64,000 nucleotides of DNA from Cyclobacteriaceae bacterium (GTDB lineage Bacteria; Bacteroidota; Bacteroidia; Cytophagales; Cyclobacteriaceae): the NCBI GenBank assembly GCA_027533395.1, contig JAPZUF010000011.1, positions 1 through 64,000 on the forward strand. The letters run 5' to 3'. The notes under the pieces were generated by a model. The model worked only from the letters and a program-made list of their open reading frames with translations. It did no database searches and was not told where the DNA came from. Both the position numbers and the translations under genes were made by a program. Positions 13,735 to 36,452 of this stretch are shown in pieces (within the stretch, counting starts at the first letter, position 1; each line of letters begins with the position of its first letter).

Positions 13735-15198
13735 TTAATAACCTGAATTTTGTTGATTTCTTAAATTCTCGTTTGCATCGATTTCTCTCTGCGGAATAGG
13801 AAGAATCATAAATTGATCATCCCAAGCAATCGAATAATCTAAAACATAAGTATTTAAGTCACCATCAAAAAAATAACCGTCAATTTCTTGTTCTAGTCTT
13901 TTAACATCATGAATTCTTACTCCTTCAAAGGCAAGCTCAAGTTTTCTTTCTTGTATTACATCATTTAATGTAACTGCACCCAATAAGGAAGCTTCTGCTC
14001 TTTCTCTTATTAAATTAACATCATTCAAAGGAGAATCTCCAACTGAGGTTCCTAACTGAAGATTTGCTTCAGCTCTTATCAAGTACATTTCTGCTAAACG
14101 AACTACAGGTATGTTTTGTCCCGGATTATTCCATTTAAATGTTGTTAACCTTCCCGGTCTTCTGCTGAAATCTGTTCCGAAATAAAATAGTTCTGTAAAT
14201 CGTTTGTCTTGAGTCTCATATTGATCGTAAATGGTTACTCGATCATTAAAAATATAATCATCGGGATCATCACTGAAAAAAGCCAAGACTTGAACATCTC
14301 CTCTTCCAATTCCATCTAGGGATGCATAAAAAGTTGCTAATCCATCGTTTCCATTACCAGCATTATTTTGGTCATTCTGCTGAATCTCGAAAATTGATTC
14401 ATTTGTATTGTCGTTTAAAAAGATGGCAGTAACTGACGAATTTAAACTGTATTTATCGCTACTAATTACTCGATTCGCTTTATCAAGTGCCTCCGTATAA
14501 TTACTTTGTTGTAAATAAACTCTTGCTAAAAATGCACTTGCTGCATACGTATCTAACCTATCTCCGTTATCTTCTGGTAATAAACCTTCAGCATCTTCCA
14601 TATCTGCAATTACTTGCTGGTAAACCTGGGCAACTGTTGCACGGCTAGGTAATTCTGATGCTGTTTGTTCATTTATAGTAGGTGTTAACCAAATTGGTAC
14701 CCCTAAATTGACAGCAGGATTACCATCATTCCAGGCTCTTCCGTATAATCTTACTAATTCAAAATGTAGTAAACCTCTTACCAATTTTGCTTCTCCTTCT
14801 AAAGTTAACCTCAAATCATCGTCTTCAACTTTATCTAAAGCAGCTAATACATTGTTAGCTAGATTAATTCCTGCAAATGCATTTACCCAAGTTCTTGTTG
14901 CTTCTGCATTTTCAGAATCCATAGTTTTTCCTCCCACTTGACGATAGCTTTGGAAGGTTCCTCTCCATCTTATACTTTGCTCTGCACCTAATAGTTCAGA
15001 AAGAAAGCTAATATTCGTTCCATATAAAGAACCTCTACCAAGTATTGAATACAATCCAATTACTGCGCTCTCTACATCTGTTTGAGTTTTAAGAGCATTT
15101 TCAGAATCAACGGATTGTAATGGCTCAACTTCTAATACATCACTACATGAGGATGCAATGAAGGAGAAAATGGTTAATAAAATAAATATCTTTTTCAT
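13735..15198 (-). CDS. SusD/RagB-family outer-membrane nutrient-binding lipoprotein
   Basis: 487-residue surface lipoprotein that forms the lid on a SusC transporter. The N-terminus is a lipoprotein signal with Cys18 (FSFIASSC then SDVLEVEP), the usual SusD start. The middle holds the TPR-like helical domain (GEAKLVRGLLHFELVRLYG, AYAASAFLARVYLQQSNYTEALDKA-like). The C-terminus has the family RLAEMYLIRAEANLQLG, and RKLELAFEGVRIHDVKRL. It lies 10 bases downstream of the interrupted susC gene. The ligand is unknown, and there is no glycan enzyme nearby. Confidence 0.93.
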   Translation of the reverse strand: MKKIFILLTIFSFIASSCSDVLEVEPLQSVDSENALKTQTDVESAVIGLYSILGRGSLYGTNISFLSELLGAEQSIRWRGTFQSYRQVGGKTMDSENAEATRTWVNAFAGINLANNVLAALDKVEDDDLRLTLEGEAKLVRGLLHFELVRLYGRAWNDGNPAVNLGVPIWLTPTINEQTASELPSRATVAQVYQQVIADMEDAEGLLPEDNGDRLDTYAASAFLARVYLQQSNYTEALDKANRVISSDKYSLNSSVTAIFLNDNTNESIFEIQQNDQNNAGNGNDGLATFYASLDGIGRGDVQVLAFFSDDPDDYIFNDRVTIYDQYETQDKRFTELFYFGTDFSRRPGRLTTFKWNNPGQNIPVVRLAEMYLIRAEANLQLGTSVGDSPLNDVNLIRERAEASLLGAVTLNDVIQERKLELAFEGVRIHDVKRLEQEIDGYFFDGDLNTYVLDYSIAWDDQFMILPIPQREIDANENLRNQQNSGY

Positions 15199-15208
15199 TT
15201 TTTAAGTA

Positions 15209-18184
15209 TTAAAGTCCAATGTTTACGCCAAAAGTGATTGTTTTTGCCAACGGTGGAGTATAAAAGTCGTGGCCAAGGGTAACATTACTTCTTCCTACAT
15301 AAGTTGTATTTACTTCAGGATCATAACCGGTATAATTTGTGAAGGTGAATAAATTTGCAGCTGCTACATATACCCTAGCGTTGGTGATGAATGTTTTAGC
15401 CAAAAGAGATTTCGGTAAATTGTATCCTAATGATACATTCTTTACGCGTAGGAATGAACCATCTTGTACCCATCTTGAGGATTTTCCAGCGCCATTTCCT
15501 TCGTATAAACGAGGCTGTGGGATGTTCGTCACATCTCCTGGTTCTTTCCAATAACCCAATTGGTCAACGGTTTGATTGTCAAAGTAATCACCATTTACAG
15601 ATTGGAAGAAGCCGGCAATATTGTAAACATCATTACCGTAAACAAATTGGAGCAGTATATCAAGGTCGAATCCTTTGTAAGAAAATTTATTATTCAATCC
15701 ACCAAAGAAATCAGGATTGGGATCACCAATTTTTTGATCTACTGCAGCGGCATAATCGTTTGTTGTTTCACCTGTTTCTGTAAAATATAAAGCATCGCCA
15801 TTATCTGGGTCAACGCCTGCGTATTTAGGTCCATAAAAAACTGCCATTGGCTGATTCTCTCTTATCTGCCCTACAAAACGTTGGCCTCCAATAATGACAG
15901 CTCCATTCATATCAGTAATCTTATTTACATTCCTTGAAATATTCAAATTAGTAGACCACGTGAATGGACCCACAATATTTTGTGAGTTGATTACAAGTTC
16001 GAAACCTTTGTTTGTTAGTTGACCGATATTTTTTGTAATGGTCGTGTAACCCACTACAGAACTTAATGGAACATCTAACAATAAGTCTTTGGTTTGTTTT
16101 TGATAATAATCTATTTCACCTGTAATTCTGTCGTTTAAAAATCCAAAATCAAATCCAATATCGAACTGTGCAGTTCTTTCCCATTTCAAATCGGGACTAG
16201 CTAAACTTAATGGAACAATTCCAGATTCTTCTTCATAAAAACCAGAAGTATACAAACCTCTAGATGCAAAATCACCAATCTCTGCATTTCCAGTTAAGCC
16301 GTAACTCGCTTTAAATTTCAAAAAGCTTAGTGTAGGATTATTTTTAAGAAATCCCTCTTCGGTTAATATCCATCCTGCAGAAGCTGCTGGGAACACACCA
16401 TAACGATTGTCTTTTCCAAATCTAGAAGAACCGTCAGTTCTCACACTAGTTGATAGAAGATACTTACCATTATAGACATAGTTTGCTCTAGCGAAATAAG
16501 AAATAAATCTAAACTCTGATCCAGAAGAACTACCTAAAGTAATTCTGGCTGCACTGGCAAGTTTTTGAAAGTTATCATTAGGAAAACCTCTACCTTCAAC
16601 AGCTGCAGCTGATGTGTTACCTTGTTGATAGCTCAATCCTATCAAGGCATCAATCTTATGTTGATTAACTTCTTTCTTATAATTTAATGTGTTATTGGTT
16701 GTATAGTTGATAGAAGTAAACTGATTATTATATCCATAACCAGTCGGTGCGCCATCTTCCGTTTCTCTTCCTAAGTAAATTTCTTCTTGTAAATTTAAAA
16801 AGTCGATACCTTGTTCTGTTCGAAGTGTTAATTCTGGCGTAATGTTATAGTTCAAATAAAAGTTAGAAATTGATCTATAAGTAGTTGCATCATTAAAACC
16901 TGATTGCTGATCAATCAAACCATTGTAATACAATGTTCTTCTATTTAGTCTTCCTGTTGTTGGATCAATTTTAGGATGAATAGGTGGCAAAGCATTTAAT
17001 TGAATAGGATTAGAAAAAGCATTGTCGTCAGAAACACGTTGATTAAAACTTCTTACCAATGAAATATTTGTACCAATAGAAACTTTATCACTTATGTTGT
17101 GGTCGAGGTTTATTCGTCCTGAAGCACGTTTAAACTCATTACCAACTATAATACCTTTTTGGTCGCTATAGTTCATGCTTAAGAAAAATCTTGTTTTCTT
17201 ATCCCCACCACTAGCGGAAATTTCATATTGATTAATTCCTCCAGTTTGAAAAGCTTCATCTGCCCAATTGGTATTAAAATTATTGTTCCAATCATCAGTG
17301 CCAGATTCTGCACTAAATTCAGCTTCCGGATCATATCCCATATTTTCAGCTGCTGCAGTAAATAATTCTCTATACTGTTGTGCGTTTAAGAATTTTGATT
17401 TTTTGGTTGGCGTGCTAACTCCAGTGAAGTAACCAAAGTTTACTTTTGTATTTCCTACTGCTCCTTTTTTTGTAGTTATAATTACTACACCATTTGATGC
17501 CCGCGCGCCATAAATTGCAGAAGCTGACGCATCTTTCAAAATTTCAATTGACTGTATATCGTTAGGGTTAATATCTGCAATGGGATTAAGTGGCTCTGCA
17601 TTAGATGTTCCTAAATCGGCAGAATTAACAATAATTCCATCAACAACATATAAAGGTTGGTTACTTGCCGATACAGATGAAGCACCCCTAACGCGTATTT
17701 GGAAACCTTGACCTAGTTTACCACTGCCTTGGTTAATATAAACACCAGCTGCTCTGCCCTGTAAAGCACTTTCTACTGAGGGTGATGGAAGGTTTTGTAT
17801 ATCAGCACCTGAAACTTTTGCAATGTTGCCCGTAAGCTCTTGCTTGATTTGTGTTCCAAATCCAACAACTACCACTTCATTTAATTGAGTGATGTCTGAT
17901 TCCATTGAAACATCAACTGCTGTTTTGTTTCCTACATTGACTTCGGCTGTTTTAAGACCGATGAAAGAAAACACTTAGGTTTCTGAACCTGAAGGTAAAC
18001 TAATTCTAAAGTTTCCGTCTGCGTCAGTTGTGGTTCCTACGTTTGTGCCTTTTACAAGCACATTTACGCCAGGAATGGGTTGGCCATCTTCAGCTCCCCG
18101 AACTACTCCACTTACTACTCTGTCTTGTCCGTATGATAATAAGGAAACGCAGAGCAGCATGACAATTAGTAATTGTTTCTGCAT
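15209..18184 (-). pseudogene. SusC/RagA-family TonB-linked outer-membrane transporter, interrupted by in-frame TAA
   Basis: Intact, this would be a 991-residue SusC. The first part (18184-17975) has a signal peptide ending SLLSYGQ and most of the carboxypeptidase-like regulatory domain (VVSGVVRGAEDGQPIPGVNVLV), then stops at TAA 17977-17975. The next codon continues the domain in the same frame (VFSFIGLKTAEVNVGNK), followed by the SusC plug (QGRAAGVYINQGSG, VRGASSVSASNQPLYVVDGI, LKDASASAIYGARASNGVV) and the barrel to the last codons. A single base change TTA to TAA explains the break: Leu fits the family ETLVFSFIG pattern. A GTG lies directly after the stop, but a protein reinitiated there would lack a signal peptide. 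It could be a true null allele, a sequence error or rare read-through. The SusD gene downstream is intact. Confidence 0.88.
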
Positions 18185-18304: not shown

Positions 18305-19375
18305 TTATTTTAAAATAATACCCAACCCACTTTTCTCCGAACAATGCATTATACCTTTCTCAATAATAAATCCTCCAGTTGCGACATCGTTTACTAAATC
18401 TAAACTACCATCTAAATCGATATATTTTGTTTGCGAACTGGCAAATGCGCAATGTAAAGCCGCGGTAATGCTAATTAAACTCTCATCGTTGCAACCCCAA
18501 AATAGTTCAACTCCGGACAAGTGTGCGATATTTGCGATTTGATTTCCTTGACTCGGTCCGCCACATTTCATCAGTTTAATGTTAAAAATTCCTGATGCTT
18601 TTTTTGGCGATAATAATCTTAAGGCATCTTGCGGTGTAATTAACGATTCATCTGCTGCTATTACCTCTCGAATTTCTTCCGGCAAAGAACGCATCTCTTC
18701 AATTTCTTTTGCTGGAAGTGGTTGCTCTATCAATTCAATATTCAATTTTTTTGTACGATGATAAAAGTCGATGGTTTCGCTTACTGTATATCCTTGGTTA
18801 GCATCTACCCGCAAAACAATTCCATTTCCAAAAACTTCGCGCAACTTTACCATTCGCTCAATATCTTCTTCAAGGTTTTTTCCAAGTTTTATTTTTAAAA
18901 CTGAAAAGCCCATCTCGATAAATTCTTTTGCTTCTTTCAATGTTTCTTCTGCGTTTTTAATACCGATAGTATTAGAAGTTGGCATTGAAAAAATTTTCTG
19001 ACCAAAATATTTTACTAAAGGTATACCTAACGTTTGGGTAAATGCATCGTGCAAGGCAATATCTAAAGCAGCCCTTGCCGCAGGATTTTTAGGAAACTTC
19101 TGCCAAACTTCATATGTAAGTTGATTAATTTCATGAATATTTCTTCCAATCAAAAAATCTAAATTATTGGCCTCTAAGGCTTGTAACGTTTGATTGAGAT
19201 TTTCACCTACTACATATTCACTGGGGTTTCCAGAACCTAATCCTGAAATACCATTTTGTAAAGTTATTTGCACAAAAGCATTGCGAACTTCATCTACAGT
19301 TTTGAAAGCAATAGTGTACGGACGTTGATTACCTAAATCTGCGCTCCATACTTTTATGTCCTTAATTTTTATCAT
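18305..19375 (-). CDS. enolase-superfamily dipeptide epimerase / DgcA-like N-acetyl-D-glutamate racemase
   Basis: 356-residue enzyme of the muconate-lactonizing subgroup. Catalytic Lys pair K161-x-K163 (VLKIKLG), metal ligands D191 (VDANQG), E217 (IEQPL) and D242 (ADES), and the opposite Lys in NIKLMKCGG near 267-270 are all present. A D-x-D (YIDLDGSLDL, about 320-322) is the motif that binds the dipeptide amino group in L-Ala-D/L-Glu epimerases. The known family also includes D-Ala-Xaa epimerases and the N-acetyl-D-glutamate racemase DgcA. The last is encoded with a DUF1611 protein (DgcN), exactly the neighbour here (6-base gap). The D-x-D favours a dipeptide substrate; the neighbour favours D-glutamate catabolism. 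Substrate is unresolved. Confidence 0.88.
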   Translation of the reverse strand: MIKIKDIKVWSADLGNQRPYTIAFKTVDEVRNAFVQITLQNGISGLGSGNPSEYVVGENLNQTLQALEANNLDFLIGRNIHEINQLTYEVWQKFPKNPAARAALDIALHDAFTQTLGIPLVKYFGQKIFSMPTSNTIGIKNAEETLKEAKEFIEMGFSVLKIKLGKNLEEDIERMVKLREVFGNGIVLRVDANQGYTVSETIDFYHRTKKLNIELIEQPLPAKEIEEMRSLPEEIREVIAADESLITPQDALRLLSPKKASGIFNIKLMKCGGPSQGNQIANIAHLSGVELFWGCNDESLISITAALHCAFASSQTKYIDLDGSLDLVNDVATGGFIIEKGIMHCSEKSGLGIILK

Positions 19376-19381
19376 AGATAA

Positions 19382-20449
19382 TTATTTCTTGCTTTCAATC
19401 CATTGTTTCAATACAGGTACTAATCTATCCAATCCATCTTCTAATGGCAATACCGTGGGGATAGTAAGTTCTGCTTCAAATTGTACTGCACTTTTGCGCG
19501 CTTCATCCGTTGTCATCTTTGCCGAATTGATGGTGATGGCGATAGTAGGAGCGCCATAAATTTTAATCAATTCAATTTCATCTTTCAACGCTGGTATATA
19601 TGCAGGATAGAACTCTAAGTCTTTGTATTGCTTTCTGGCCGGATTATGTTGTAACACTACCGCATCGGCTGCAGCTGAAACAATCCATTCAGAACCTGCC
19701 GGACCACTAGGGTTGCGCAAGGAAGATTGACCTTCAATGAAAATTACATCCGGTTTCTGTTCTGTGTAACATTGCCAGATGGCATGTTCCATTTCTCCGG
19801 AAATAAAATCGTTTAAGGTAGAATCAAAAATAAATCCATACTTCGCGCCTTGCATCCAACCTGTTTGGCCGGTATAAATCATTTCAGCTTTATATCCTGC
19901 CTGTCGCATGGCTTCCATTAAAAAGCGAGTGGTTGTTCTTTTACCCAATGCACAGTCGGTACCCAACACGGCTACTTTCAAACATTTTACTTCAGCTATT
20001 TTGCCCGACCAAAAATGTAAGTCTTTAAATTTTTTGGGTTTGCGTACATCAATTATTTCTAAACCTTTAGCTTTTGCTAGTGTTGTCAACTCTAAATGAT
20101 CGGAAACATGGTCGTGCAATCCATTAACGATACTCAAGTTATTTTCTAACGCTTCTTTTAACATCAATTGCAAACTTTCCGGAATTACTCCGCCTTTGGT
20201 AGCCACACCAATTACAGCATATTGAATTTTTTCTTTTGTTTTTTCTACTGCTTCAGTAATAGAAGTAAAGATGGGGATGTTTCTTTTTTTGCCATCTAAC
20301 ATTTCACCAGCATCCTTGCCTGCATGTTTATGATCAATAATACCCAAGATTTTGAATCTATCGGTACCTCGAATTAAACCATGAGCAGTTTTAGCATTGC
20401 TGGTGTCTAAATATCCACCTGTAATTACGATGGCATTTGTTTTTTGCAT
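19382..20449 (-). CDS. DUF1611 family P-loop protein (DgcN-like)
   Basis: 355-residue protein with an N-terminal Rossmann-like domain (AHGLIRGTDRFKILGIIDH) and a P-loop domain beginning near residue 165 (VAVLGTDCALGKRTTTRFL). Further family motifs are TGQTGWMQGAKYGFIFDST, VIFIEGQSSLRNPSGPAGSEW and IYGAPTIAITIN. Members paired with an enolase-superfamily racemase were shown to be D-glutamate N-acetyltransferases (DgcN) in marine Proteobacteria. This assignment to a Bacteroidota homologue is by analogy. It lies between the epimerase (6 bases) and a serine hydrolase gene (10 bases), so the three form one transcription unit. Confidence 0.85.
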   Translation of the reverse strand: MQKTNAIVITGGYLDTSNAKTAHGLIRGTDRFKILGIIDHKHAGKDAGEMLDGKKRNIPIFTSITEAVEKTKEKIQYAVIGVATKGGVIPESLQLMLKEALENNLSIVNGLHDHVSDHLELTTLAKAKGLEIIDVRKPKKFKDLHFWSGKIAEVKCLKVAVLGTDCALGKRTTTRFLMEAMRQAGYKAEMIYTGQTGWMQGAKYGFIFDSTLNDFISGEMEHAIWQCYTEQKPDVIFIEGQSSLRNPSGPAGSEWIVSAAADAVVLQHNPARKQYKDLEFYPAYIPALKDEIELIKIYGAPTIAITINSAKMTTDEARKSAVQFEAELTIPTVLPLEDGLDRLVPVLKQWIESKK

Positions 20450-20459
20450 AAATATGAAG

Positions 20460-21707
20460 TTAATTATCGTATTGAACTTTAAAAGCTGAAAGATTGGGTT
20501 TTACTTTTCTTGATCTTTGTAATTCATATTGATGAAGTAATCGACCTAAATTCTTAAAGAAGGGAAATCCAACTCTGTCGTAATCGTATATACCATCGTT
20601 AAAAACTTCATCTTTATTGCATAAGATATAAGCCGTTACCATAAACTCAATATTGTTTTCAAAATCAACGATGTAAGCATTATCTAATAAGTACCCATAG
20701 GCATCGCCAACTTTATTTAATATTCGGATGTTGTCAGGTATTGTTCCTTTTCCACCAAACATAAAAAACTTACAATACGCATCGGTATAATACGTTGTGT
20801 CTTTATTATAAGGAGGATAACTGGTTTCAGTTGGTAGTTGCGACATGTATTGAAGCAAAAACTTTCTATCGTCTTCAGTTAAATTGAAATTATTACCTTT
20901 CTTACTTTCAGGGAATAAGATAGCTTTGAGCATATTTTGTTGCTCGTGTAAAGGAAAAAAATTCTTGTAGGAAAAATCAAAAGCCTGCTTAACCAACGAA
21001 TCATTTTTGATAAATCCTTTTCCTCTTAGAATTTTTTCTTTCGGCACAAATGCAGGAAATTCTCCACCTTCTTGCTTGTAAACGATTTTATCTTTCTGAA
21101 AAAAAGTAATGGCTTCCGTTTGCGCGTTTTCATCGGGTGTTAAAGGTCTTTCTAAACGATGAATCATTCTTGTTGATGCATACCCCAATTCGCGCAAACG
21201 ATTATTGGCTGGAACAGGCCCCACCCATTCATACAAACGATTGTAGGCATCATTATCACTGACAACTAAAATCTTTTTGATGTAGTGTGCAACAGATGGC
21301 ATGTAGTTTTCACTTGTGGTATCTTGCCAAACACTACGTTGACCGGCATATACACTATCGTGATGCATCGGTGTATACTTATCTAAATGCGGAATAGATA
21401 AAGTATTCAGTTTATCCAAAGCCAATAACGCAGACGGAAATTTAATGGTGGATGCAGGATAAAAATACCTTGATGAATCGAAGTTGTAATAGAAAGATTT
21501 AAATGCTGGAATGTTCTTTTCATCTCTGTTAATCTGTGTGTAAATGATTTGAACATCATACACATTAGCGCTATCCAATACCTGTATAAATTGCTCGCGT
21601 TGGGTTTCCATCAGGTTGCGCAAAAACTGCTCATCTTCTACTATCGTTTTTTTACACGAAAATCCAACTAGAAGAAATATAAAAAGTAGAATATACGTTA
21701 TCTTCAT
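20460..21707 (-). CDS. class A beta-lactamase-like serine hydrolase lipoprotein
   Basis: 415-residue lipoprotein: signal peptide ends at Cys18 (FLLVGFSC). The active-site SxxK is S86-T-I-K89 in YPASTIKFPSALLALDKL, and SDN is at 150-152 (VVSDNDAYNRLYEW). This is the class A beta-lactamase/DD-peptidase fold. The usual KTG is not obvious (KVGDAYGYLLDNAYIVDF is the closest match). It is the first gene of the operon with the DgcN- and DgcA-like genes. A plausible role is cleaving D-amino-acid-containing peptides outside the cytoplasm, but this is inferred from context only. It could equally be a beta-lactamase-like hydrolase of unknown substrate. Confidence 0.78.
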   Translation of the reverse strand: MKITYILLFIFLLVGFSCKKTIVEDEQFLRNLMETQREQFIQVLDSANVYDVQIIYTQINRDEKNIPAFKSFYYNFDSSRYFYPASTIKFPSALLALDKLNTLSIPHLDKYTPMHHDSVYAGQRSVWQDTTSENYMPSVAHYIKKILVVSDNDAYNRLYEWVGPVPANNRLRELGYASTRMIHRLERPLTPDENAQTEAITFFQKDKIVYKQEGGEFPAFVPKEKILRGKGFIKNDSLVKQAFDFSYKNFFPLHEQQNMLKAILFPESKKGNNFNLTEDDRKFLLQYMSQLPTETSYPPYNKDTTYYTDAYCKFFMFGGKGTIPDNIRILNKVGDAYGYLLDNAYIVDFENNIEFMVTAYILCNKDEVFNDGIYDYDRVGFPFFKNLGRLLHQYELQRSRKVKPNLSAFKVQYDN

Positions 21708-33644: not shown

Positions 33645-36452
33645 ATGTGTAAAAAAGTTTTCAGCCTACTCCTTTTTACCCTTTTATTTTCTCTACACGC
33701 CTATCCGCAAACCAGTGCGCAATTTGCAGATAGTGTTTGGCAAGAAATGACTTGGGAGGAGCGTATTGCCCAACTTTTTATTTTACCAGTTGATATAGAA
33801 AATAACGAAAGTGCCGAAAGGTCACTTCAACTCATAAAAAATTGGCAACCGGGTTTCGTGGTGTTTGATGTAGATGGCCCAAATAAAGCACACTTTTTCA
33901 ATAAAGAAATCCGAGAGATTAAAAATAACCTGGTGTGGAGTGGCTACCTTAAAAAAGAACATTGGTTACAAAATGATAGTATTTGGCTATTGCCTCCTCC
34001 TATTGTGTTGGCTGCCTGTGGTGACACAGTGCTTTTAAAACAAAGCGGACAATTGCAAGCTGCCTGGTTAGCCCACATGGGTTTCGATTTTGTGATGCCC
34101 CTATTAGTGCAAAGCAGAGTGCTTGCCAACAACGATAGCTTATATAATTATTGGGGCGATTATCAATTTAATTTTTCAAATAAAACAAAAGCATTCATCC
34201 ATGGACTAAGTCATCAAAATTTTGAAGTGGTGTTGAGTTATAACTCCAACCAAACAAAAAAACCTTGGGAATTAGATGCCAACTTCCTGATGGCGATCGA
34301 AACTGAAAAAGCGCGAAAAACTTTTCAATACAAAGAATTATTAAAGAAGCTTCAAGTGCCTGATGCTGTTTTATCACCTGTTTTGTTTCAATCTTTTCTA
34401 AGAAAGAAAAATAATTTTTCGGGTTTGCTCGTGGCCGATATCAGCGAGATCACTTTTGCCGGCAAGAAAACACGCGCAGGCGAAGCCGAGTTGTTTGCCT
34501 TTCAGAGTGGAAACGACTTATTCTACAAACCCAAAAATATGCAGGCGGGCATTAGAAAAATAAAATCGCTTGTACGAAAAGATAAAAGCTATCAAAAACA
34601 ATTGGAAATAACGGTTAAGAAAGTGCTGACTAAAAAGTTTGAAAGAAAACCTATACAGCGCGATACGAAATCTTCTTATCAACAATTTAAATATGCCTTT
34701 GATGCTTTACATCATAACCTGGCAGAAGCGAGTATTTCTATAGTTAAAAACGAAAACGAAATTCTTCCCATACGCCATTTAGAATTACAATCCATCGCCA
34801 GTGTATCTATTGGACAGCTAATGCCAACCACTTTTCAATCGGCTGCTGAACTGATTGCACCCGTTCAACATTTTCAATTGATTGATCTGAGAGATACAAC
34901 CACGTTGTTCAATTCATTGAAAAAATTTTCGATCTGTTTATTGGCCATTTATCCCACGGCTAATTGGCATGCAGATTTAATATCAAACATCAACCGATTG
35001 GCTCAACACACACAAGTGGTACTGATTAATTACGATAATCCGGCAGAATTACAACATTCATTTAACGTTCAAGCTATCGTACAAGCTTATTATGCTGATA
35101 AAGCGATGGAACAAGCAGCAGCCAACCTTATTTTTGGTTCTACCGCTGCAAAAGGTGATTTTCCATTTACTGTAAACTCGTACACAAACACCACCGTAAA
35201 AAAATTCAATGCGATTGATCGTTTAAAAGTTGGTGTGCCGGAACAAGAAGGAATCAGCAGTTTTAAATTAGATTCTATTGCACCCATTGTTGCCGAAGCC
35301 ATCAATATAAAAGCAACTCCGGGTTGTGTGGTGTTGGTTGCCAGAAACGGCAGAATTATTTACAACAAAGCTTTCGGTTGGCAAACGTATGAAAATCAAA
35401 TTGCTACGAATACAAATACAATTTATGATTTGGCCAGTATTTCTAAAGTAGCGGCTACTTTACAAACCACCGCATTTCTTCATCATAAAAAGGAAATTGA
35501 TGTATATAAAAAGATGTCGGTTTACTTGCCCGAACTCAAATCATCTAACAAAAAAGATTTTACCATAAAAGATATTTTAACACATCAGGCCGGGCTCTGG
35601 CCTTTTCTTCCTTTTTGGGCACAAACAAAAAAAGATAGTTTATTTCTGCCAGAGTTTTATGCCAAAGACTCTTCAGCTAATTTTCCTTTTCCTGTTTCCA
35701 AAAAATTATATGCCACCGTTGGTATGAAAGATTCACTTTGGCAATGGATTATAAAAGCCAAAATCAGAGATAAACCTTTGCGCACACCATTCGACTATCG
35801 CTACTCCGATATGGGTTTTTATATGTTGCATCATTTGGCTGAAAAGAAATTAAACCAACCGATGGAAGATTTTCTGCAACAAAATTGGTACGAACCTCTT
35901 GGCGCTCATACATTGGGTTATCTTCCATTACGCAGATTTTCGGCTAACAACATTGCACCTACTGAAAACGATTTCTTGTTCAGAAGAAGTTTATTGCAAG
36001 GTTATGTGCACGACCAAGGCGCAGCTATGCACGGTGGTATTGCGGGACATGCAGGTTTGTTTGGGTCGGCAGCCGATCTCGCCAAAGTCGGACAACTATG
36101 GTTGCAATTTGGAAATTATGGTGGCCAAACTTTTTTAGACAGTGCAACAGTTACTTACTTTACACAAAAACAATATGAAGCTAGCCGTAGAGGTTTAGGT
36201 TGGGATAAACCAGATTTTATCAATCCTAATCTCAATCCCGCTTCTCAATTTGCATCGCCTGCAACGTTCGGTCATACGGGTTTCACAGGAACATGTATTT
36301 GGGCAGATCCGGAAAATCAATTGCTTTTTATTTTCCTGAGTAACCGTGTACATCCGGATATGAATAACAATAAATTACTCAACAATAATATTCGTCCGCG
36401 TGTACACGACATAGTTTATAAAGCTTTGTTTGATTATCGTTCAATATTTTAG
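33645..36452 (+). CDS. degenerate GH3 N-acetylglucosaminidase-like domain fused to beta-lactamase-family serine hydrolase
   Basis: 935 residues with signal peptide (SLHAYPQ). Residues about 30-330 align to the GH3/NagZ barrel by its start (MTWEERIAQLFIL), the segment FSGLLVADISEIT (Asp265 at the nucleophile position) and GEAELFAFQSGNDLFYKP. The usual acid/base loop KHFPGHG is absent: where it is expected the chain reads LSYNSNQTKKPW. A middle linking domain covers about 340-515. The C-terminal class C-like hydrolase domain (about 530-930) is intact: S598-I-S-K601, YSD at 720-722, HTG at 877-879. Likely a periplasmic or surface cell-wall enzyme whose GH3 part is now non-catalytic. The operon does not extend beyond it. 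Confidence 0.85.
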   Translation: MCKKVFSLLLFTLLFSLHAYPQTSAQFADSVWQEMTWEERIAQLFILPVDIENNESAERSLQLIKNWQPGFVVFDVDGPNKAHFFNKEIREIKNNLVWSGYLKKEHWLQNDSIWLLPPPIVLAACGDTVLLKQSGQLQAAWLAHMGFDFVMPLLVQSRVLANNDSLYNYWGDYQFNFSNKTKAFIHGLSHQNFEVVLSYNSNQTKKPWELDANFLMAIETEKARKTFQYKELLKKLQVPDAVLSPVLFQSFLRKKNNFSGLLVADISEITFAGKKTRAGEAELFAFQSGNDLFYKPKNMQAGIRKIKSLVRKDKSYQKQLEITVKKVLTKKFERKPIQRDTKSSYQQFKYAFDALHHNLAEASISIVKNENEILPIRHLELQSIASVSIGQLMPTTFQSAAELIAPVQHFQLIDLRDTTTLFNSLKKFSICLLAIYPTANWHADLISNINRLAQHTQVVLINYDNPAELQHSFNVQAIVQAYYADKAMEQAAANLIFGSTAAKGDFPFTVNSYTNTTVKKFNAIDRLKVGVPEQEGISSFKLDSIAPIVAEAINIKATPGCVVLVARNGRIIYNKAFGWQTYENQIATNTNTIYDLASISKVAATLQTTAFLHHKKEIDVYKKMSVYLPELKSSNKKDFTIKDILTHQAGLWPFLPFWAQTKKDSLFLPEFYAKDSSANFPFPVSKKLYATVGMKDSLWQWIIKAKIRDKPLRTPFDYRYSDMGFYMLHHLAEKKLNQPMEDFLQQNWYEPLGAHTLGYLPLRRFSANNIAPTENDFLFRRSLLQGYVHDQGAAMHGGIAGHAGLFGSAADLAKVGQLWLQFGNYGGQTFLDSATVTYFTQKQYEASRRGLGWDKPDFINPNLNPASQFASPATFGHTGFTGTCIWADPENQLLFIFLSNRVHPDMNNNKLLNNNIRPRVHDIVYKALFDYRSIF

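Follow-up and report, generated by a model that had tools for sequence, protein, structure and literature searches.

A DUF1611-epimerase gene pair next to a class A-like serine hydrolase in a Cyclobacteriaceae bacterium: a branch separate from DgcN/DgcA with a possible role in the salvage of D-residue peptides

The DNA analysed here, a stretch of 64,000 nucleotides from a Cyclobacteriaceae bacterium (the window), contains three minus-strand genes encoding an enolase-superfamily epimerase (EPI), a DUF1611 protein and a serine hydrolase (HYD), next to a SusC/SusD pair (Table 1). The intergenic gaps within the trio are 6 and 10 bases in the ORF listing, and the Pfam matches of all three proteins exceed the gathering scores. 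An earlier note had described these as three close-packed genes for a serine hydrolase with SxxK and SDN motifs, a DUF1611 P-loop protein and an enolase-superfamily epimerase, and ORFs, Pfam families and motifs confirm both the arrangement and the identities. Scans of the 64-kb window for Rfam families (at gathering scores) and for tRNAs gave no matches. A gene fusing GH3 to a class C beta-lactamase/PBP4B-like domain is located about 12 kb away from the trio.

Table 1. Genes of the locus and its surroundings, with positions in the window.
Feature	Position	Strand	Remarks
EPI, enolase-superfamily epimerase, dipeptide-epimerase type	18305..19375	-	356 aa; Pfam MR_MLE_N/C
DUF1611 protein, P-loop, DgcN's Pfam families, no DgcN orthologue	19382..20449	-	355 aa; DUF1611_N/C
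HYD, lipoprotein-like class-A/PBP-A-fold serine hydrolase	20460..21707	-	415 aa; Pfam Beta-lactamase2, 58.8 bits
SusC-like gene, in-frame stop 17975-17977	15209..18184	-	TIGR04056; place in the locus not conserved
SusD-like lipoprotein, SusC partner	13735..15198	-	Pfam SusD_RagB + SusD-like_3; place in the locus not conserved
GH3 + class C beta-lactamase/PBP4B-like fusion	33645..36452	+	NCBIfam + Pfam; context only

The alignment places the residues K161-x-K163, D191, E217, D242, K267 and D320-L-D322 in EPI. The KxK motif, the D/E/D metal ligands, the second lysine and the D-x-D are identical in 122/122 aligned epimerase rows (rows of up to 250 aa were left out), and since the DgcA rows have the same residues, this motif set is not specific to dipeptide epimerases. 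The D-x-D, proposed earlier as a sign of a dipeptide substrate, was rejected as a discriminator because Vibrio tritonius and Sphingobium proteins annotated as DgcA keep D-L-D as well. The best PDB match of EPI is 3rit/3ro6 (E 9.2e-102). Its AF2 model has a TM of 0.92-0.95 to 3ro6/3rit (0.94 to 3rit), and structure ranks 1-12 are all dipeptide epimerases (3ro6, 3rit, 1jpm and 3jva). The nearest solved relative is the dipeptide epimerase of Methylococcus capsulatus, the crystal of which contains L-Arg-D-Lys. EPI scores 130.4 bits against the DgcA equivalog NF042940 (cut-off 400) and 216.4 bits against the L-Ala-D/L-Glu epimerase model NF041118 (cut-off 500). EPI has K at position 25, in contrast to G in DgcA, and this K25 aligns with R24 of the Bacillus subtilis L-Ala-D/L-Glu epimerase (AEE; 1jpm numbering); D297 is common to 3rit, while B. 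subtilis AEE has I; and position 298 is E in the window clade and S or C in two DgcA. The only other MR_MLE_C protein above the cut-off in the genome is matched best by o-succinylbenzoate synthase models, below their cut-offs, which leaves EPI as the sole candidate for a dipeptide epimerase in this genome.

The conservation of the pair was examined in 66 close loci (set 1) and 76 wider loci (set 2), counted apart as they share some genomes (L027/L197, L028/L199, L073/L179, L090/L198 and L045/L158, for example). The wider set is a part of the places found in a phylum-wide search, and L150 and L176 are not among the 76, having no DUF1611 by the blast filter. EPI adjoins DUF1611 in 61/66 close relatives and in 55/76 wider loci, or 37 of the 42 wider loci in which DUF1611 has at least 45% identity. 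This pairing recurs across the phylum and is therefore not due to chance. DUF1611 genes without an epimerase also exist, for example in lysine operons. The linkage across relatives that the earlier note called for is thus present for DUF1611 and EPI, in part for HYD, and absent for SusC/SusD, as described below.

The DUF1611 protein carries the P-loop G163TDCALGK170 and has 2g0t, 2obn and 7xrj as PDB relatives. In an alignment of seven proteins, two of them annotated DgcN, the residues G163, T164, D165, C166, G169 and K170 as well as E239-G240-Q241 are invariant. Against the DgcN equivalog NF041892, the window protein scores 149.7 bits (cut-off 480). In the DUF1611 tree it falls in a 45-row clade, while DgcN forms a separate clade of 6 rows; in the EPI tree, EPI and 3rit belong to a 37-row clade apart from DgcA, and the annotated DgcA clade (6 rows) is separate from 61 rows that include EPI. 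The two trees, built with 7/66 set-1 loci and with set-2 rows of up to 230 aa left out, agree largely, clade by clade. Pairs that do group with DgcN/DgcA are found in four other Bacteroidota genomes (L122-L125), and the two racemases tested among them pass the DgcA cut-off (509 and 501 bits). Because both window proteins miss the curated cut-offs and occupy separate clades, the pair is separate from DgcN/DgcA, which also supports the earlier claim of a non-DgcA epimerase.

HYD has the motifs S86TIK89 and S150DN152, with K332-V-G334 where KTG is expected. These motifs are conserved across 39 aligned rows of 251-519 aa, four of which are duplicates, and 37/39 have K-[VI]-G in place of K-[TS]-G as their third motif. 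The rows include one split across two ORFs (L183); a fusion frame (L185) was left out. An R-L-E with an omega-loop-like Glu, judged by eye to be equivalent to E166, is present in 34/39 rows; this Glu is replaced by S or A in the more distant relatives L037, L053, L170, L172 and L183. The lipobox Cys18, also judged by eye, is Cys in 36/39 rows. The AF2 model (pLDDT 86.7) has a Z of 22.1 to 4hes and of 21.2 to PBP-A 2j7v (rmsd 3.0, 251 residues aligned), the latter tied with many beta-lactamases. HYD scores 25 bits against the class A beta-lactamase equivalog NF033103, below its cut-off of 200. A relative of HYD was sought in viral contigs and was not found there.

Linkage of HYD to DUF1611 is observed in 31/66 close relatives; in the other 35/66, no HYD adjoins it. 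All ten HYD-linked rows of the DUF1611 tree sit in one 17-row clade that extends over two families (DUF1611 identity about 50%), and the linked HYD lies upstream on the same strand. Across the order, HYD is present in 32/59 DUF1611-positive genomes vs 125/232 negative ones, and among the 32 genomes that carry both, only 5 have the two side by side, a count that leaves out two weak HYD places. The class A-like hydrolase linkage proposed earlier thus holds within one clade but not across the order, where presence is independent of DUF1611, and HYD as an obligate partner was rejected for this reason. One of the ten linked rows, L185, has HYD fused with an M14 zinc carboxypeptidase in a single 879-aa frame that immediately precedes DUF1611 and EPI. 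Away from DUF1611, HYD was also observed between GGT and NlpC/P60 genes (L219) and behind a pair of epimerase and PLP-enzyme genes (L213); the L213 epimerase is not of the window type, its best model being DgcA at 219.7 bits, below the cut-off.

Other hydrolases occupy the same place in related loci. Among 28 wider-clade loci outside the HYD clade, 12/28 adjacent same-strand genes match hydrolase representatives, as do 7/190 other genes of these loci, a comparison biased by the choice of the representatives from the neighbours and from which genes below 200 aa were dropped. The Fisher value was rejected as an unbiased test on this account, and a clan-density estimate was used instead: members of the beta-lactamase/DD-peptidase clan make up 6/28 adjacent genes, with about 0.1 expected from genome-wide counts, an estimate free of the representative-choice bias, although its rows are related. 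The remaining 16/28 adjacent genes match no hydrolase representative, and no hydrolase type is constant. The neighbours of the pair include S13, class C with an amidohydrolase, Amidohydro_3 and M28, GH3-S12, an M55 D-aminopeptidase and, in another branch, S58, and M14 stands before DUF1611-EPI in L181 and L217/L220. In haloarchaea, NlpC/P60, DUF1611 and a dipeptide epimerase occur with dacB nearby, or D-aminoacylase precedes DUF1611 and the dipeptide epimerase. The proposed link to murein or D-peptide hydrolases is supported in that such enzymes take this place above background elsewhere in the clade.

The SusC/SusD pair had been read as the importer of the system. The spacing of 120 bases given for it is correct if the count runs from where EPI ends to the natural start codon of SusC, an ATG (18184). 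An in-frame TAA interrupts the SusC frame, so that the ORF as listed, downstream of this stop, begins at a GTG (17974) without a signal peptide; it scores 792 bits against TIGR04056 (cut-off 368). With the window excluded, SusC/SusD lies within 3 kb in 1/66 close and 0/76 wider DUF1611 loci, and direct adjacency is limited to the window and one sister. L217 and L220 have an opposite-strand pair with the SusC start about 3.4-3.6 kb past EPI, and relatives in two congeners sit elsewhere. Given the rare linkage, the congeners and the interrupted gene, SusC/SusD was rejected as a component and is a lineage-specific neighbour.

The trio is, on balance, best read as a salvage module for peptides with D-residues, most likely derived from murein, a reading held with modest confidence; its substrate, reaction order and physiological role are what we infer from families and neighbours. 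HYD, exported and anchored in a lipoprotein-like manner, would work in the envelope on peptides with D-residues, as a serine peptidase resembling PBP-A. In the cytoplasm, the DUF1611 protein may N-acylate a D-amino acid or a short D-peptide, a DgcN-like activity suggested by the invariant motifs common to both. EPI, as a member of the enolase superfamily, would then invert the D-residue of the N-acyl or aminoacyl substrate, with proton transfer between the lysines of K161-x-K163 and K267 and with Mg presumably held by D191/E217/D242, and the L form could be used by ordinary peptidases or deacylases. Of the D-amino-acid/muropeptide salvage system proposed earlier, the D-amino-acid/dipeptide chemistry and the link to murein or D-peptide hydrolases are supported, and the D-x-D argument and the role of SusC/SusD are not.

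Three other explanations were weighed. The pair could be an orthologous DgcN-DgcA pathway, in which D-Glu is N-acetylated, racemised to N-acetyl-L-Glu and deacetylated. The two families occur in the same order, the P-loop and E-G-Q are common to DgcN and the D-x-D to DgcA, and Bacteroidetes are named as dgcN carriers in PMC12363236; the scores far from the DgcN and DgcA cut-offs, the separate clades with long branches, E298 and K25 in EPI and the pairs of L122-L125 that group with DgcN/DgcA make this quite unlikely. Classical murein dipeptide recycling, with EPI in the place of the L-Ala-D/L-Glu epimerases YcjG/YkfB and a side role for DUF1611, appears unlikely, though less so. NlpC/P60 and M14 neighbours fit the YkfC-YkfB and MpaA-YcjG pathways (PMC2954226), K25 stands at the place of R24 of B. 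subtilis AEE, and EPI is the sole candidate in the genome. This explanation has against it the L-Arg-D-Lys in the crystal of the nearest relative, D297 as in 3rit, and the low NF041118 score, and it leaves the constant DUF1611 partner unexplained.

It is similarly improbable that HYD, as a beta-lactamase or cell-wall enzyme, has no relation to the pair beyond a common transcript. Its independence of DUF1611 across the order and the 35 close loci without it agree with such a view, but the same-strand upstream place is kept in one clade across two families, the beta-lactamase equivalog score is low, the omega-loop-like Glu is lost in more distant relatives, and HYD forms a fusion with an M14 carboxypeptidase in L185 and elsewhere lies near NlpC/P60, GGT or an epimerase. 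Returning to the salvage of D-residue peptides, a broader and rather doubtful extension is that DUF1611 proteins are general activators for the racemisation of free or peptide-bound D-amino acids, with most Bacteroidota branches, the window's included, acting on basic D-residues (D-Lys, D-Orn, D-Arg or the D-centre of DAP) and not on D-Glu. It is hinted at by the grouping of EPI with the enzyme crystallised with L-Arg-D-Lys, by a sister DUF1611 branch whose partner, in Bacteroidota and Proteobacteria alike, is a PLP enzyme resembling ornithine racemase, and by another branch that adjoins lysA, aspartokinase and asd. On this view, DgcN would be the exception in acting on an acidic residue.

Organic nitrogen in D-amino acids and murein debris makes up a large pool with slow turnover. 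A second DUF1611-epimerase branch, apart from DgcN/DgcA and widespread in Bacteroidota, means that counts of 'dgcN' by DUF1611 homology would mix several chemistries. The neighbours (class A-like, class C and S13 hydrolases in one slot, ornithine racemase and lysine genes) suggest concrete substrates, through which the function of a large DUF family can be put to the test. Literature searches found no paper that combines DUF1611 with an epimerase, and none that combines three of the subjects dipeptide epimerase, Bacteroidetes, serine hydrolase and peptidoglycan recycling.

The trio resembles the D-glutamate pathway of DgcN-DgcA (Yu et al. 2023, ISME J, as presented in PMC12363236 and PMC10845958) but is a separate branch. 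In both, the gene for an enolase-superfamily racemase comes after that for DUF1611, and the P-loop, E-G-Q and D-x-D motifs are common to them; the window pair differs in its equivalog scores and clades, in its residues at positions 25, 297 and 298 and in the hydrolase neighbours of its type. With the M. capsulatus dipeptide epimerase (3rit, 3ro6), EPI has 48% identity and the KxK, D/E/D, D-x-D and D297-E298 in common, whereas K25 is R in that enzyme. PBP-A of Thermosynechococcus (2j7v), a DD-peptidase near the class A beta-lactamases (PMC11189452), has the class A fold of HYD, which differs in its length, with additional segments, and in the R-L-E of most of its rows. Murein tripeptide salvage through YkfABC or MpaA-YcjG-PepD, as described in PMC2954226, likewise uses an epimerase of the same superfamily, with NlpC/P60 or M14 enzymes that are also neighbours in the window's relatives, whereas the window system has a DUF1611 partner, in its branch a serine hydrolase, and an epimerase whose nearest solved relative has a basic dipeptide in its crystal.

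Three minus-strand genes of the window encode a lipoprotein-like, class-A-like serine hydrolase (HYD), a P-loop protein (DUF1611) and an enolase-superfamily epimerase (EPI). The open reading frames that the earlier note had placed here were recovered with exactly matching coordinates. The spacing of 6 bases between EPI and DUF1611 and of 10 bases between DUF1611 and HYD, on a shared strand, suggests that HYD, DUF1611 and EPI, in that order, are read as one transcript. The window genome (3.6 Mb, 35 contigs) contains a single DUF1611 match and one further MR_MLE_C protein above the cut-off, for which the best models are o-succinylbenzoate synthases, every one below cut-off.

Coordinates of the features in the window and in loci fetched from other genomes
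Feature	Stretch	Positions	Strand	Domains or content
EPI	window	18305-19375	-	Pfam MR_MLE_N/C
DUF1611 protein	window	19382-20449	-	Pfam DUF1611_N/C
HYD	window	20460-21707	-	Pfam Beta-lactamase2
In-frame stop in SusC	window	17975-17977	-	
GH3 fusion	window	33645-36452	+	GH3 fused to class C beta-lactamase/PBP4B-like domain
Racemase-family gene	L063	11114-11887		Asp/Glu racemase family, near cysteate racemase model
HYD fusion	L185	8804-11443		HYD and M14 zinc carboxypeptidase domain
HYD run	L219	448-4881		gamma-glutamyltranspeptidase, HYD, NlpC/P60

The pairing of DUF1611 with EPI is widely conserved. EPI adjoins DUF1611 in 61 of the 66 close relatives with genome contigs, 63 of which share 69-95% and three 52-56% DUF1611 identity with the window. 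The remaining five loci either stop near a contig edge (L052, L081, L086) or hold no EPI within the stretch examined (L085, L087). A DUF1611 match was found in 76 of 395 sampled Bacteroidota genomes, 71 of them above the cut-off. For a wider set, which was counted separately, 78 regions were fetched, including further relatives from beyond this sample, and a DUF1611 ORF was retained by filter in 76. A same-strand EPI lies within 4.5 kb in 55 of these 76: 37/42 at DUF1611 identities of at least 45%, 12/16 at 35-45% and 6/18 below 35%. The DUF1611 and EPI trees are mostly concordant on the pairings, with exceptions including L169 and L177, where DUF1611 falls inside the window's large clade and EPI outside it.

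Additional genes accompany the pair in several loci. A ParE-toxin-like ORF of 99-103 aa is an odd insertion within the conserved pair in L059, L064, L065, L068, L078 and L080 (Pfam run on L059 and L064), and the racemase-family gene of the close relative L063 also sits between DUF1611 and EPI. In family f48 (L142, L145, L157, L159), the gene immediately 5' of the pair encodes a class II DAHP synthase (L142 checked with Pfam). A run of PALP, DUF1611, a protein of about 507 aa, creatininase and EPI is repeated in L131, L134, L135, L138, L139, L147, L149 and L152. The PALP protein is threonine-synthase-like in L135, the protein of about 507 aa is fused to creatininase in L131, and its L134 member gave no Pfam or NCBIfam match.

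DUF1611 has HYD upstream of it in 31/66 close loci and 8/76 wider-set loci. All ten HYD-linked tree rows (window, L026, L170, L172, L179, L183, L185, L197-L199) fall within one 17-row DUF1611 clade (support 99/98), which spans family f1 and the distant family f42. In L185, a single 879-aa frame combines HYD with an M14 domain immediately before DUF1611-EPI. MpaA, a murein tripeptide amidase, is itself an M14 enzyme, but against the MpaA model the L181 M14 protein reached only 26.8 bits, below the cut-off of 157. Among the order's 291 genomes, 157 have HYD and 59 have DUF1611, and the two show no association (HYD in 32 of 59 DUF1611-positive and 125 of 232 other genomes), which opposes a tight bond between them. 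Among the HYD places listed, which leave out those of G657 and G477, HYD is adjacent to DUF1611 in at least five of the 32 genomes with both (G000, G004, G021, G559, G588). Of these, G004 is a congener of the window genome and corresponds by coordinates to L028, a Chryseotalea sanaruensis record. DUF1611 is absent from 17 of 19 further regions around HYD; 13 of the 19 come from genomes that gave no DUF1611 match. In six of the 19 (L208, L213, L221-L224), HYD is found downstream of a PLP-enzyme cluster, whose member in L222 is BioF-like, below cut-off. An epimerase precedes HYD in L213 (best model DgcA, 219.7 bits, below cut-off), and the run in L219 is tight, same-strand and away from DUF1611. 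These neighbours at loci without DUF1611 show that HYD is tied in its own right to murein-peptide enzymes. That the hydrolase is a bystander of DUF1611-EPI is improbable.

Other hydrolases were found in the neighbouring slot in a survey of 28 loci of the window's large DUF1611 clade, with the HYD clade excluded.

Hydrolases found in the slot neighbouring DUF1611-EPI
Hydrolase	Loci
S13 D-Ala-D-Ala carboxypeptidase	L180; one gene further out in L188
GH3-class C fusion	L186, L189 (directly downstream of EPI); one gene further out in L187
Class C and amidohydrolase	L161, L166; divergent in L178
Class C	L192
Amidohydro_3	L171, L173
M28	L163, L168
M55 D-aminopeptidase	L164
M14	L181

Adjacent same-strand genes matched hydrolase representatives in 12/28 cases vs 7/190 other genes of the same loci, a Fisher value of 5e-8 that is biased because the representatives were chosen from the neighbours themselves; no representative matched in 16 of the slots. 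A fairer estimate rests on the clan to which the earlier note's own hydrolase points. In 25 of the 28 genomes, PF00144, PF02113 and PF13354 gave 321, 42 and 65 matches (hand-summed, overlaps and splits included), at most about 0.4% of genes, assuming 0.9 genes per kb across the listed 119 Mb. About 0.1 clan members are expected in the 28 slots, 26 of which belong to the 25 genomes; six were seen (L161, L166, L180, L186, L189, L192), spread over four or more separate parts of the tree. Apart from these slots, a GH3-class C fusion is encoded in the window itself, and 41 of the 66 relatives have a cluster of these fusions no more than 10 kb from DUF1611 (Pfam run on L029 only).

A directly adjacent SusC/SusD pair was observed outside the window in L026 alone, the 95%-identical sister (SusC 51-54%, SusD 39% identical). 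L217 and L220 contain a distant pair on the opposite strand, with its SusC (28-29%) about 3.4-3.6 kb past EPI, and L125 a SusC (33%) 3.4 kb upstream. In two other congeners, the best SusC/SusD relatives sit away from the trio, beside a purF-like gene and near a dinB-like gene (by eye). The window SusC has an in-frame stop early in the gene, after which the listed ORF resumes at a GTG without signal peptide; stop-free relatives exist, and the SusC of the sister genome is uninterrupted. Either gene decay or an assembly error may account for the stop in the window copy.

The predicted HYD structure (pLDDT 86.7) resembles class A-like proteins, namely 4hes (Z 22.1, 260 aligned, 3.2 Å), LRA-5 8eo5 (Z 21.5) and PBP-A 2j7v (Z 21.2, 251 aligned, 3.0 Å), with rows within 1 counted as tied. 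PMC11189452 describes PBP-A as a relative of class A beta-lactamases that works as a DD-carboxypeptidase and endopeptidase; what sets the beta-lactamases apart is a catalytic glutamate in the omega loop. SxxK, SDN and K-x-G are kept in the aligned HYD rows covering them, and R-L-E, a possible counterpart of this glutamate, is present in 34/39. Its replacement by S or A in the other five (L037, L053, L170, L172, L183), three of them outside the close group, argues against an obligate beta-lactamase role. The EPI model (pLDDT 89.0) matches the dipeptide epimerase entries 3ro6 and 3rit with TM 0.92-0.95, and the title of 3rit reads 'complexed with Mg and dipeptide L-Arg-D-Lys'.

Elsewhere, DUF1611 is found in multiple contexts. 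Haloarchaeal plasmids carry NlpC/P60, DUF1611 and a dipeptide epimerase with dacB close by or, in a second arrangement, D-aminoacylase, DUF1611 and a dipeptide epimerase. According to PMC2954226, an epimerase is paired with a second enzyme in the known murein-peptide pathways MpaA-YcjG and YkfC-YkfB. This second enzyme is of M14 or NlpC/P60 type, MpaA belonging to M14. Vibrio tritonius has dgcN and dgcA with a D-amino-acid transaminase, and in Phaeobacter, V. parahaemolyticus and Ruegeria, DUF1611 is followed by an alanine/ornithine-racemase-family enzyme. DUF1611 proteins with an ornithine-racemase-like PLP partner form one tree branch of Bacteroidota and Proteobacterial plasmids (L130, L194, L200, L202, L203); Bacteroidota L130 and L194 scored 405 and 418 bits against the ornithine racemase model, below the cut-off of 480. 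A distant branch without adjoining epimerase lies beside lysA, aspartokinase and asd (L129, L132, L137, L148, L151, L154, L160; genes confirmed by NCBIfam or Pfam in one member each), and these lysine/DAP neighbours suggest that certain DUF1611 proteins may be biosynthetic. L091, titled uncultured Thalassobius, has the same DUF1611 contigs and positions as G570 of the window's order and is probably a mislabelled MAG.

The fold and the families are shown here, and the reading that is somewhat favoured as a whole is D-residue salvage, in which DUF1611 would acylate a D-residue substrate, EPI would invert the D-residue, and HYD would act as an exported D-peptidase in the window branch. Classical L-Ala-D-Glu recycling is doubtful, and the boldest reading, with basic D-residues as the substrates of the Bacteroidota branches, is put forward very tentatively. 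The window pair is also unlikely to be orthologous DgcNA, the known D-glutamate pathway pair. The window DUF1611 scored 149.7 bits against the DgcN equivalog (cut-off 480) and EPI 130.4 bits against that of DgcA (cut-off 400). In the 91-row DUF1611 tree, the window lies inside a fully supported 45-row clade, and the annotated DgcN proteins of Vibrio tritonius (L205) and Sphingobium (L206) share a branch of 2.13 with the four Bacteroidota loci L122-L125. The 67-row EPI tree places the window with 3rit in a fully supported 37-row clade, and DgcA and the partner racemases of L122-L125 are set apart by a branch of 2.43. True DgcA-type pairs are present in Bacteroidota alongside the window type, since the L122 and L123 racemases, at 509 and 501 bits, exceed the cut-off for DgcA. 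The D-x-D that the earlier note had taken as pointing to dipeptides fails as a discriminator, as both annotated DgcA carry D-L-D at that site.

A DUF1611 protein with an enolase-type racemase is a published kind of pair, and Bacteroidetes are reported as dgcN carriers in PMC12363236. No description of a separate DUF1611-EPI branch was found in the open-licence literature, the part covered here. The window's separate branch, with hydrolase partners of its own, is a variant of the published pair. It differs from DgcN/DgcA in its separate clades, in scores below both equivalog cut-offs and in the window columns 25, 297 and 298. Column 25 holds K in 68/68 close rows and E in 14/25 distant ones; 1jpm and 3rit have R there, and the two annotated DgcA have G. 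At 297, the window has D like 3rit, 1jpm has I, and DgcA has L or I. At 298, the dipeptide epimerases compared have E, DgcA has S or C, and the L122-L125 proteins have G.
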